Positions 88-3,647 of a stretch of DNA of 28,897 nt are shown here, in pieces. The position numbers and the translations under genes are program-made. Source of the stretch: a virus. Each line of letters starts with the position of its first letter. The stretch's first letter is position 1. The notes below the pieces were generated by a model. It made no database searches and was not told where the DNA came from. It saw only the letters and a list, made by a program, of their open reading frames with translations. The stretch lies in IMG/VR virus record IMGVR_UViG_3300030060_002610, positions 1-28,897 of that record. One strand, given 5' to 3'.

Positions 88-489
88 TTACCCATCCATT
101 CTATATGGATCGTAAGGTGTATCACGGCTCTCTTGCGAGGCTTCTTGTGGCTCAGACAGCGTGACCGTCTCTGCCATGCCACTAGCGTGCGCCACTACCT
201 CTACCTCTACCGGCACTATGTCCTGCAACCTTGTGCTTACCTTTTCGGTTACAGGCTCTTGCACAGAGTAGCCGCCGAGCTTTACAAAGTCCTCGACCGA
301 CATATGAAATAAATCCGCAAGCTGGTTTACCCTGCTGTATTTCATGTCAGACCACTGTCGCCAGCGACTTACCTGTATCGGCCCTACGCCAGTGCTTTCT
401 GCGACTTGCCCATTAGTCATACCGGTGAGCTTTTGCGCCATGCGTAAACTTTGCCCGATATTAAAAGGGGATATCATCTTCTGGTACAT
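88..489 (-). CDS. Cro/CI-like (XRE) helix-turn-helix protein
   Basis: This 133-residue protein carries a Cro/CI-type HTH at about residues 10-72. A helix around TNGQVAESTGV is followed by a recognition-like helix PIQVSRWRQW and then a LADLFHMSVEDFVKLGG tail typical of the XRE fold. The C-terminal half is acidic and low in structure, and I do not recognise it. The chosen ATG is preceded by GAGAAGG, so it overlaps the ssb stop by 29 bases; an internal ATG at 477 is the alternative. It is the last gene of the leftward operon and could repress one or both of the divergent promoters at 3120-3190, which is inference. It lacks the peptidase domain of lambda-type CI repressors, so it is not evidence of lysogeny. 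Confidence 0.8.
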   Translation of the reverse strand: MYQKMISPFNIGQSLRMAQKLTGMTNGQVAESTGVGPIQVSRWRQWSDMKYSRVNQLADLFHMSVEDFVKLGGYSVQEPVTEKVSTRLQDIVPVEVEVVAHASGMAETVTLSEPQEASQESRDTPYDPYRMDG

Positions 490-874
490 CTGTTGCCTTC
501 TCCTCTACAGTTGCTGGCGCATCGGGTTCTGCTGTGTCTCGCCTTGCGCCTAATAAAACAATTTGCTTAACATTAATATCAGTGCGGTAATGTTTAACCC
601 CACCGTCATCCCATGAACGCGTTTTGAGTGCGCCCTCTGCATAGAGCTTGTCACCCTTAGCCACTCTGCCGTACACCACTTCAGCCAGCGCGTCGAAAAA
701 AACAAGTCTGTGCCATTCGGTAACGTCCTCTGACTTTTGCGTTTCCTTGTTGTACCTGTAGCCAGTGGTAGCAAGACTGCACGTAACGATGGTGGCCCCT
801 GCTTGCGTCACACGCTTCTCTGGTGCCCCGCCCACATTACCTAGCAAAGTTACTTTATTGATGCCTTTAGCCAT
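461..874 (-). CDS. ssb: Single-stranded DNA-binding protein (SSB)
   Basis: The 137-residue protein has a standard bacterial-type OB fold: start MAKGINKVTLLGNVG, central TEWHRLVFFDALAEVV, then a VAKGDKLYAEGALKTRSW strand pair. A short linker leads to the acidic tip DDIPF, which in SSBs docks partner enzymes. It coats single-stranded DNA during replication and recombination. It overlaps the putative annealing protein by 8 bases and is preceded by a GAGGG ribosome site. Placement beside an annealing protein suggests a phage recombination unit. The family call is firm. Confidence 0.96.
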   Translation of the reverse strand: MAKGINKVTLLGNVGGAPEKRVTQAGATIVTCSLATTGYRYNKETQKSEDVTEWHRLVFFDALAEVVYGRVAKGDKLYAEGALKTRSWDDGGVKHYRTDINVKQIVLLGARRDTAEPDAPATVEEKATDVPEDDIPF

Positions 875-1613
875 CTATGCCACCCTCCGCTTCTTGCTCT
901 TTGAGAAGTGCCTTTATTGTTTCTTTTGTAGGCGCATCTAACCTCGCCCAGACACTGGCCTTGCCGTTGGTGTATACCGATATTTCATCGACGAGCTGGC
1001 TCACGCCAATGCTATCGCCATTACCCGCCACACGCTCTAGCTCTACAGCATACTGGTCTATTTTTTCGTTACCGTGCGCTATCTTCTCGTTCACCTCTTT
1101 CTTGAGCGCCACCTTACTACCTTTCGGCCCACAACTGAAGTAGAAAGCTTGCTCACTTTCGTCAAGAACCTCAAACCATTCTTTAAATTCTAACGGTGTA
1201 AGGCAATGCAATAGCTGTTGCAATACGGCGTATGAGCGCGCCTTTGATTCTAGCTCTACCTGTTGGAGTATTGCATTGCCAACCTCGTCGGCAGAAGCAT
1301 ACTCATCGCTACCCGAGTAACCCATGCTCGCCAACGCCCTACCAATCGCCGATGTTTCGCAGTTTTCTAAAAAAGATGTGCTATTAACTTTCGACCGAGG
1401 GTCTGTGCGCACCTCTCTCGCTAAACCACTGCCAACCTCTTTACCATCTGGCGATGTAATAACGCATCTCACCACCGCAGTGTCTGCATCGCAAAGAGAC
1501 TTAATGGGGGTAGTGTGAATGCCCCACCCTAAACCATGCGTCTCGCGGAAATCTCTAACGCGTGCCGCTACCGTTTTGTACTGCTTACCGTGAATAGGAA
1601 CGTAATCACTCAT
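867..1613 (-). CDS. Putative single-strand annealing (ERF/Rad52-like) recombination protein
   Basis: This 248-residue protein has an N-terminal domain (about 1-125) with the motif ENCETSAIGRALASMGY near residue 85. The motif is shared by a widespread phage family usually linked to ERF/Rad52-type single-strand annealing proteins. A conserved pattern of VAARVRDFRETHG, a central GSGLAREVRTDP strand and the ASADEV end of the domain also fit. The C-terminal half is helical and charged, and I cannot assign it. The ATG at 1613 is chosen over a TTG at 1619; it overlaps the preceding stop by 8 bases. The ssb gene follows directly, which supports a recombination role. The exact superfamily is inference from motif memory. 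Confidence 0.7.
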   Translation of the reverse strand: MSDYVPIHGKQYKTVAARVRDFRETHGLGWGIHTTPIKSLCDADTAVVRCVITSPDGKEVGSGLAREVRTDPRSKVNSTSFLENCETSAIGRALASMGYSGSDEYASADEVGNAILQQVELESKARSYAVLQQLLHCLTPLEFKEWFEVLDESEQAFYFSCGPKGSKVALKKEVNEKIAHGNEKIDQYAVELERVAGNGDSIGVSQLVDEISVYTNGKASVWARLDAPTKETIKALLKEQEAEGGIDG

Positions 1614-1776
1614 TTGCAAGATGCTCCTCTACCAGCTTTGCCATGTTCTCTGGCAAATCCTCTACGTCCACAATCTGAAAGCCGGCGGGGGAGTAGACCC
1701 CTACCCGCCCATCTTCTCTAACTTGTAAGGTTAGCTTTCCCCCACCTTCTACTTCGATGTATTTGTCGCGGCTCAT
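1606..1776 (-). CDS. Small 56-residue protein of unknown function
   Basis: A 57-codon frame starts at an ATG that overlaps the upstream stop as ATGA and ends in TGA overlapping the start of the annealing-protein gene. The product begins MSRDKYIEVEGGGKLTLQV and contains a short beta-rich stretch (REDGRVGVYSPAGFQIVD) followed by an acidic helix LPENMAKLVEEHL. Its tight fit between two coupled genes, with no spare bases, is the main evidence that it is real. I do not recognise the family. Confidence 0.75.
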   Translation of the reverse strand: MSRDKYIEVEGGGKLTLQVREDGRVGVYSPAGFQIVDVEDLPENMAKLVEEHLANE

Positions 1777-2584: not shown

Positions 2585-2889
2585 GCTAGGCCATGCTCCT
2601 CAAAAAAGTCGGCTACGTCCATGCCATTGGTTATTTTGTACCCACCCCATCTCGCAGAGTGGACGCGCTCTATTTCTACCAACTCATGTACCACTGGCGT
2701 GCCGTGCATTTCGCTAATGTCGCGGTGATGCCAAACGTCATAGAGCAATGCAACATCGGTGTGGTCTACCTCTAAGGTGATATGGCGGTCATCGTCTATG
2801 TCGATAATTTCTGCGCCAGTGTCCTCAAAGGTTTCTTGGTCGTGGTATGCAATGGCGTTGTCCACTGCAATGCGGATTAGTACATTCAT
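2581..2889 (-). CDS. Hypothetical acidic early protein (102 residues)
   Basis: The start is set at the ATG at 2889, which overlaps the preceding stop as ATGA; an open frame continues to 2955 but would overlap the upstream gene by 70 bases. The protein begins MNVLIRIAVDNAIAYHDQE, is rich in Asp/Glu/His and ends MDVADFFEEHGLA. A beta-strand-rich core (GAEIIDIDDDRHITLEVDHTD) suggests a compact soluble domain. No motif that I recognise is present. Its stop overlaps the zinc-ribbon gene as ATGA. Confidence 0.75.
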   Translation of the reverse strand: MNVLIRIAVDNAIAYHDQETFEDTGAEIIDIDDDRHITLEVDHTDVALLYDVWHHRDISEMHGTPVVHELVEIERVHSARWGGYKITNGMDVADFFEEHGLA

Positions 2890-3080
2890 GCCGGTTGGCC
2901 CTCTTGTAATCGCGTGACTTGCTCTAGCGTGAGCTTTTGCGAATCGTTGCACCACTGGCTGACTTGCTGGTCTGTGGCGTGGTCATAAATAACCTCTACC
3001 GCTTCGCCGATGGCAATGGTAGTCGGCATACGATCACCAGTGGCCTTGTGGTAGCAGTAAAGCATTTGCTTGCGGTCCAT
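2886..3080 (-). CDS. First gene of leftward early operon (64 residues, unknown)
   Basis: A 64-residue soluble protein starting MDRKQMLYCYHKATGDRMP and ending in a helical tail QKLTLEQVTRLQEGQ. It is the promoter-proximal gene, with an AAGGGGT ribosome site about 5 bases before the ATG and the promoter at 3125-3153 upstream. Its leader, about 37 bases long, contains the 16-bp parS-like palindrome. I do not recognise the family. Confidence 0.75.
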   Translation of the reverse strand: MDRKQMLYCYHKATGDRMPTTIAIGEAVEVIYDHATDQQVSQWCNDSQKLTLEQVTRLQEGQPA

Positions 3081-3093
3081 GTGTTACCCCTTG

Positions 3094-3109
3094 TGTTCTA
3101 CGTGGAACA
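3094..3109. promoter_or_regulatory. parS-like 16-bp palindrome (candidate operator)
   Basis: TGTTCTACGTGGAACA is a palindrome with one mismatched pair. It differs by one base (T for C at position 6) from TGTTCCACGTGGAACA, a form of the chromosomal parS site bound by ParB/Spo0J. It sits in the leader of the leftward operon, about +9 to +24 from the predicted start of transcription. It is flanked by direct copies of GTTACCC at 3083-3089 and 3110-3116. It could be a host ParB site or simply the operator of a phage repressor. Confidence 0.5.
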
Positions 3110-3124
3110 GTTACCCTATTTGCC

Positions 3125-3153
3125 ATTTTACTAACCCTATGGGCTAATGTAAA
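3125..3153 (-). promoter_or_regulatory. Sigma70-type promoter for the leftward early operon
   Basis: On the minus strand TTTACA (3148-3153) and TAAAAT (3125-3130) each match the sigma70 consensus in 5 of 6 positions and are separated by exactly 17 bases. Transcription would start near 3118 and drive the genes from 3080 to 88. Confidence 0.75.
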
Positions 3154-3160
3154 GGCCTTT
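3151..3160. promoter_or_regulatory. Perfect 10-bp palindrome between divergent -35 boxes
   Basis: AAAGGCCTTT lies between the two divergent promoters. It overlaps three bases of the leftward -35 box and abuts the rightward one. It is a candidate operator that could control both directions at once; this is inferred from position and symmetry only. Confidence 0.4.
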
Positions 3161-3190
3161 TTGCCCTGTACTTAACCATAGTGGTATAGT
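3161..3190 (+). promoter_or_regulatory. Extended -10 promoter for the rightward operon
   Basis: TATAGT at 3185-3190 (5 of 6 consensus) is preceded by TGG, giving an extended -10 element. TTGCCC at 3161-3166 is a weak -35 at 18-bp spacing. Transcription would start near 3197. Confidence 0.65.
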
Positions 3191-3204
3191 ACGATTGTCA
3201 TATC

Positions 3205-3220
3205 GGCAGGGGGTCCTGCC
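3205..3220 (+). promoter_or_regulatory. 5'-leader hairpin of rightward transcript
   Basis: GGCAGG at 3205-3210 pairs perfectly with CCTGCC at 3215-3220 around a GGGT loop. It starts about 8 bases after the predicted transcription start and ends before the GGGGAGG ribosome site at 3231-3237. It could stabilise the mRNA 5' end. Confidence 0.5.
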
Positions 3221-3242
3221 AGCAACCAAGGGGAGGTACCAA

Positions 3243-3647
3243 ATGCACTACTGCTACAACACAGGCGGCCAAGAGGCGCACAGATCACTCAAGGGTGGTT
3301 ACTGCGGCGTCAGGGCTCTAGTCATTGCACATCCAGACTTGCAATGGCCAGAGGCCGAGGCATGGCTCAAGTCCTACACCCAGCGCGGCAAGGCGGGTAA
3401 CCGCAAGCTCTGCAAGGGTATCTACAAAGAGGACTACAGCGCCGCCTTAGCAGACCTCGGTTGGGTATGGTGCCAAGCACCTACCTTCACAGGCCGCAAG
3501 GCCAGAGCCGCCGACCTCGCAGACGAAGGCATAGTCATCGCTCGGCAGGCCGGTCACTACACCGCAGTGGTAGATGGCGTCATCAACGACATCTGGGATT
3601 GCTCACACAAGATGGTGTACGGCTTCTGGCGCTACGAGCACGGCTAA
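3243..3647 (+). CDS. Papain-like Cys-His protein (putative cysteine peptidase/transglutaminase fold)
   Basis: The 134-residue protein shows the signature of compact papain-like enzymes. A nucleophile-type Cys stands at the head of a helix (GGYCGVRALVIA, Cys21), and a C-terminal block GHYTAVVDGVINDIWD supplies His105 and an acidic partner, Asp116 or Asp119. The block ends with the GFWRY strand. Similar small phage proteins exist, but substrates are unknown. The ATG at 3243 is chosen because a strong GGGGAGG lies 5 bases upstream and because the longer frame, from a TTG at 3195, would begin before the predicted transcript does. It is the first gene of the rightward operon, so it may be made early and act on host proteins, which is inference. 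Confidence 0.7.
   Translation: MHYCYNTGGQEAHRSLKGGYCGVRALVIAHPDLQWPEAEAWLKSYTQRGKAGNRKLCKGIYKEDYSAALADLGWVWCQAPTFTGRKARAADLADEGIVIARQAGHYTAVVDGVINDIWDCSHKMVYGFWRYEHG

Follow-up and report, generated by a model that had tools for sequence, protein, structure and literature searches.

The window analyzed here, that is the whole stretch of DNA of 28,897 bases, is a fragment of an IMG/VR record with a GC content of 49.8%. It encodes capsid and adaptor proteins of the SU10 type as well as a terminase, and its portal protein is a relative of the Octadecabacter Antarctic DB virus 2 portal (49% identity). The site of interest is a palindrome within the divergent gap at 3081-3242, and the features of the locus are the following:

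88-489, minus strand: helix-turn-helix protein at the end of the leftward operon (weak match to the repressor family phrog_7950 and to HTH_23)
461-874, minus strand: single-stranded DNA-binding protein of the leftward operon (phrog_44, PF00436)
867-1619, minus strand: leftward early gene, 250 aa (match to phrog_11717, function not known; no Pfam match)
2886-3080, minus strand: first gene of the leftward operon, 64 aa, no known family
3083-3089, no strand: GTTACCC repeat 1, overlapping the leftward Shine-Dalgarno sequence
3087-3092, minus strand: Shine-Dalgarno sequence AAGGGG of the leftward operon; the ATG at 3080 follows after 6 nt
3094-3109, no strand: parS-type palindrome TGTTCTACGTGGAACA, identical to a recF-located chromosomal parS of one gammaproteobacterial family
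3095-3101, plus strand: changed half-site GTTCTAC (C-to-T), read from the sequence
3102-3108, minus strand: intact half-site GTTCCAC, read from the sequence
3110-3116, no strand: GTTACCC repeat 2, directly adjoining the palindrome
3125-3153, minus strand: predicted leftward sigma-70-type promoter TTTACA-17-TAAAAT (consensus match only, 10/12)
3161-3190, plus strand: predicted rightward extended -10 promoter TTGCCC-18-TATAGT (consensus match only)
3243-3647, plus strand: first gene of the rightward block, 134 aa, an ORF with no assigned function

Transcription from the predicted leftward promoter (3153 to 3125) would start at about position 3118 and thereby place the palindrome at approximately +10 to +25 of the predicted leader, where it is followed by the Shine-Dalgarno sequence and then by the next start codon, the ATG at 3080. 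This agrees with the sequence-only reading, which had located the palindrome in the leader of a leftward early operon. The direct GTTACCC repeats that it had pointed out on either side of the palindrome are present as well, and two repeated 7-mers within the divergent gap are not clearly above what chance would produce. No match to ParB or ParA was found among the scanned ORFs of the 28.9-kb fragment. As a separate observation, the starts of the two divergent genes form a 22-nt inverted repeat (3047-3068 against 3240-3261, 86% complementary), and a similar M-x-Y-C-Y-[HN] motif is present in both translations, as though one of the two starts were an inverted copy of the other.

The palindrome is found exactly as first quoted, in a single copy. 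TGTTCTACGTGGAACA is 16 bp long, reads TGTTCCACGTAGAACA on the minus strand, and differs from TGTTCCACGTGGAACA by a single transition at half-site position 6, which converts GTTCCAC to GTTCTAC. Of the two GTTYCAC half-sites of a chromosomal-type parS, one is intact here, and the other reads GTTCTAC. When the window was searched for TGTTNNACGTGNAACA with zero or one mismatch, 3094-3109 was the only match in the 28.9 kb. Computed from the dinucleotide composition of the window itself, 0.0009 sites per window are expected within one mismatch of the four canonical parS forms, and 0.000015 exact sites of the TGTTCYACGTRGAACA family, and one was observed in either case.

It had been questioned whether a site with a mismatch in the CACGTG core of one half could be a parS site at all. 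In bacterial genomes, where we kept the other half fixed, 162 sites in 118 stretches read CC in 90 cases, TC in 67 and CT in two, with GA, GC and AC found once each, and it is clear that the CT form carried by the window is rare on chromosomes in general. Counted by class, it was present in one of 289 genomes in the class of the alphaproteobacterium G051, and in three of 274 in the class of the gammaproteobacterium G053. The picture is different in the family of G374, a group of streamlined Gammaproteobacteria, where the 16-mer of the window or its fully changed sibling TGTTCTACGTAGAACA is the sole parS-like sequence in 18 of 21 genomes; those using this variant have 35-40% GC. Each genome carries one or two sites, mostly two, at a distance of 624-630 bp. 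In G374 they lie inside recF, beside dnaN and dnaA, and in the other 17 site-bearing genomes they are likewise inside recF-homologous sequence. RecF is 38-75% identical to that of G374 across the family, yet the 16-mers are constant. At the recF sites 35 of 42 match, against approximately one of 42 (about 2%) expected from the codon usage outside the sites with the amino acids held fixed; since the codon counts inside the sites are fixed by the selection of the sites, the evidence is the frequency of 35/42 only. Genes for both ParA and ParB are present in G374, the sole family member checked. The 16-mer of the window matches a parS found in bacteria that have a ParB gene.

Other gammaproteobacterial groups have canonical parS forms at similar spacing, and the CT form therefore looks like a lineage-specific drift of parS. 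Our assumption that the C-to-T form was specific to viruses was overturned by these whole-genome searches, which identified it as the native parS of a bacterial family. Judged by this comparison, it is very probable that the exact sequence of the window serves some ParB as a genuine parS. The window site stays eligible despite its mismatch, the same change being native in that family and compatible with ParB binding there, and a parS form should not be discarded just because it deviates. A further deviant form was seen in G072, a 0.6-Mb alphaproteobacterial genome in which about 14 parS-like palindromes, mostly TGTTCCACATGGAACA and TGTTCCATATGGAACA, occur at G072:C1:537401-570061 (L548, L549). 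We considered these CACATG-type palindromes as a dispersed repeat and rejected this, as all copies lie within one 33-kb stretch; dnaQ and a coaE-like gene are located in this stretch, so the copies resemble a parS cluster at an origin, apparently one with a changed central CpG.

The distribution of the palindrome among viruses was quantified in IMG/VR against a scrambled control palindrome of the same composition with CACGTG kept. TGTTCCACGTGGAACA occurs in at least 120 stretches, and the control in 12 in the whole collection, so that viral contigs are at least 10-fold enriched for the parS palindrome. In a scan with TGTTCTACGTNGAACA, the variable base among the matches listed was G in 75, A in 33, C in 4 and T in 7 cases, and clustering these matches by the similarity of their flanks left 52, 14, 3 and 4 clusters, respectively. 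The 16-mer of the window accounts for at least 75 occurrences in at least 52 clusters, against at least 4 and at least 7 occurrences of the neighboring variants in the same scan, and is thus enriched in viral contigs as well; as the excess survives clustering, redundancy is not the explanation. All enrichment counts are lower bounds, and the variant spectra are samples. Exact parS palindromes are genic in 57% of cases, compared with 87% of random positions when an identical ORF caller is applied and with 10 of the 12 control palindromes, which corresponds to a non-coding placement of approximately 43% against 13% for random positions. A 20-mer spanning the palindrome had matches in 159 records of sequenced phages, whereas a scrambled 20-mer had 7, all of them Aeromonas phages. 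The 159 records include phi29-like phages (in the connector gene), phiPsa374-like Pseudomonas phages (in the terminal repeat), mycobacteriophages and Microviridae. Collectively, the parS resemblance that had been proposed came out stronger than claimed, on account of the native bacterial variant and the viral over-representation. HTH_ParB was matched in only one of 50 site-bearing viral records, suggesting that the binder would normally be that of the host. Some Klebsiella phages also carry exact parS palindromes. Since Enterobacterales, to our knowledge, lack chromosomal ParABS, some occurrences must have another cause.

Two phage groups showed arrangements of their own. In phiPsa374 and its relatives the palindrome is located in the direct terminal repeat, at positions of about 370-410, so both ends of each linear genome would carry one. 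In L164, L138, L141, L142 and L155, TGTTCCACGTAGAACA is found 13 nt before the start of the connector gene, in a Shine-Dalgarno context nearly as in the window; these connectors share about 60% identity with the connectors of the group of Pelagibacter phage HTVC010P, and cultured relatives are without the palindrome. Cultured relatives of the site-bearing groups are in fact mostly without it, which means that its presence varies between related phages.

The most plausible alternative to a host ParB site, and still the main rival as it was in the sequence-only reading, is an operator for a dimeric regulator encoded by the phage, most simply the helix-turn-helix protein at 88-489, which would autoregulate the leftward operon and leave the likeness to parS incidental. 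The position between promoter and Shine-Dalgarno sequence is a classic one for an operator, and the protein is encoded in the same operon. Several such palindromes in intergenic gaps, as a phage regulator needs, are known from the phages of G031 and G046: L455 (G031) and L453/L454 (G046) contain five parS-type palindromes per record, most of them between a stop codon and the next gene, and the G031 and G046 records gave no match to HTH_ParB. The window, however, has a single copy within one mismatch in its 28.9 kb, with no degenerate relatives, and no homologue of the helix-turn-helix protein was found in the other site-bearing phage loci compared. Furthermore, the occurrence of the same 16-mer in unrelated phages is easier to reconcile with a conserved host factor than with numerous independent phage repressors. 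We regard a phage operator as possible, at a probability well below that of a host site.

A chance resemblance, meaning a random palindrome without a dedicated binder, appears improbable. Many windows were screened, so a one-in-a-thousand event can turn up, and the records of the relatives of the window have no such site. L004, the only close relative (95% DNA identity), spans positions 1-1406 of the window and ends before the palindrome; L002 and L003 have nothing but the rightward gene in common with it (51%) and carry no such palindrome. Searches that used the rightward gene, the 250-aa early gene or the first two genes of the leftward operon taken together found no relative covering the palindrome locus, and neither DNA searches of phage records nor the rightward protein detected phages sharing it. 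Against chance stand the approximately 0.001 sites expected per window, the share of about 7% that chance takes of the exact 16-mer in IMG/VR (calculated from the neighboring variants among the matches listed), and the non-coding location of the site at a predicted promoter.

The palindrome could also act as an RNA hairpin of the leftward leader, stabilizing the mRNA or tuning access to the Shine-Dalgarno sequence in a manner comparable to the Mu-gpT-DE RNA. In the best-sampled phage group the palindrome follows the terminator of a gpT-type capsid gene and precedes the next start, and the relatives of this group have unrelated stems at the same place; the element is the Mu-gpT-DE RNA (RF03012), and in this one phage group the 16-mer is its inner hairpin, of which relatives keep the stem with quite different sequences. 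In the gpT-type group the 16-mer is therefore an RNA hairpin, with a possible further role as a DNA site. For the same reason a sequence identical to parS is no proof by itself, which limits this part of the original proposal. In site-bearing phages the palindrome is also often directly before a Shine-Dalgarno sequence. In the window, however, the transcript strand UGUUCCACGUAGAACA has a C-A mismatch at the loop, its stem reaches only -2.7 kcal/mol, shuffled sequences fold at least as well as the leader (z = +1.4 and +0.8), and no Rfam family, RF03012 included, matched the window at the gathering score. The asymmetric variant moreover shows no strand preference relative to transcription (11 clusters in the U-G against 9 in the C-A orientation), which suggests a double-stranded DNA site. 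For the window we rejected the RNA hairpin as very unlikely on the weak fold and the missing strand preference.

Elsewhere, in L079, L095, L037, L170, L206, L223, L468, L471 and L475, the inner hairpin of the Mu-gpT-DE type is an exact parS palindrome or a host parS variant, and sister phages of this set have unrelated stems; it is possible that one sequence doubles as RNA hairpin and ParB site in such leaders.

Returning to the host ParB site, our estimate that the palindrome is a host-type parS, serving as a nucleation site for the chromosomal ParB of the host, is evenly balanced between yes and no. If so, it probably damps the early operon or attaches the phage genome to host segregation. 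Host ParB-CTP clamps would load at the palindrome soon after entry of the genome, and clamps at about +10 to +25 could hinder RNA polymerase in leaving the leftward promoter, making early expression dependent on free ParB. The same clamps may attach the incoming genome to the segregation machinery of the host, in the way reported for phi29 with Spo0J. Of these proposals we would put most trust in the binding by host ParB itself, and which way ParB would regulate the leader is a guess. Precedents exist for both binding and repression: ParB proteins from several species, P. aeruginosa among them, bind the half-site GTTCCAC (PMC10419367, PMC7022226), and P. aeruginosa ParB represses genes beside the intergenic parS3 and parS4 sites (PMC7022226). 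The 49.8% GC of the window differs from the 35-40% of the genomes using the variant, and consequently no host was matched. More generally, and only tentatively, we suggest that phages of many lineages without a ParB of their own carry single parS sites in the dialect of their host lineage (including CTACGTGG and the CACATG forms), and rely on host ParB for timing their early transcription or for segregating and protecting their genomes; the window would be one such case, at an early promoter.

Compared with known systems, the likeness to the Mu-gpT-DE RNA (RF03012) lies in an inner hairpin that in some members is exactly TGTTCCACGTGGAACA or the variant of the window, whereas the window has neither the element nor an upstream gpT-type capsid gene, and its RNA stem is weak. 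With the recF-located parS of Gammaproteobacteria it shares the identical 16-mer, the dyad symmetry and the half-site GTTCCAC. Chromosomal parS, however, is present as one or two copies close to dnaA on a replicon that also carries parAB, and the window has a single phage copy and no parAB found in the fragment. Phages of Alphaproteobacteria place sites for the host cell-cycle regulator CtrA in their promoters, described as lytic deferment (PMC9437464). Both cases have sites for a host cell-cycle DNA-binding protein in phage promoter regions, but CtrA is a response-regulator transcription factor, whereas ParB is a CTP-dependent clamp and mainly a segregation protein. As for the exploitation of host ParB by a phage, we know of only one well-studied example. 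The virulent Bacillus phage phi29 is described as using host Spo0J (ParB) for spore entrapment (Meijer et al. 2005, as cited in PMC9437464). The likeness is that the fate of the phage genome would be tied to host ParB here as well, and that a parS-type palindrome is found in the connector gene of phi29-like phages. In the latter the match is in coding sequence and the role is spore entrapment, whereas the site in the window lies in an early leader and is known from its sequence; the window carries the parS-type site, and its lack of ParB holds for the 28.9-kb fragment. Should host ParB bind here, the phi29/Spo0J case would be extended to phages of non-sporulating bacteria and phage early gene control would be tied to the chromosome segregation machinery, and since parS dialects differ between bacterial lineages, such sites would also provide a signal for host prediction.
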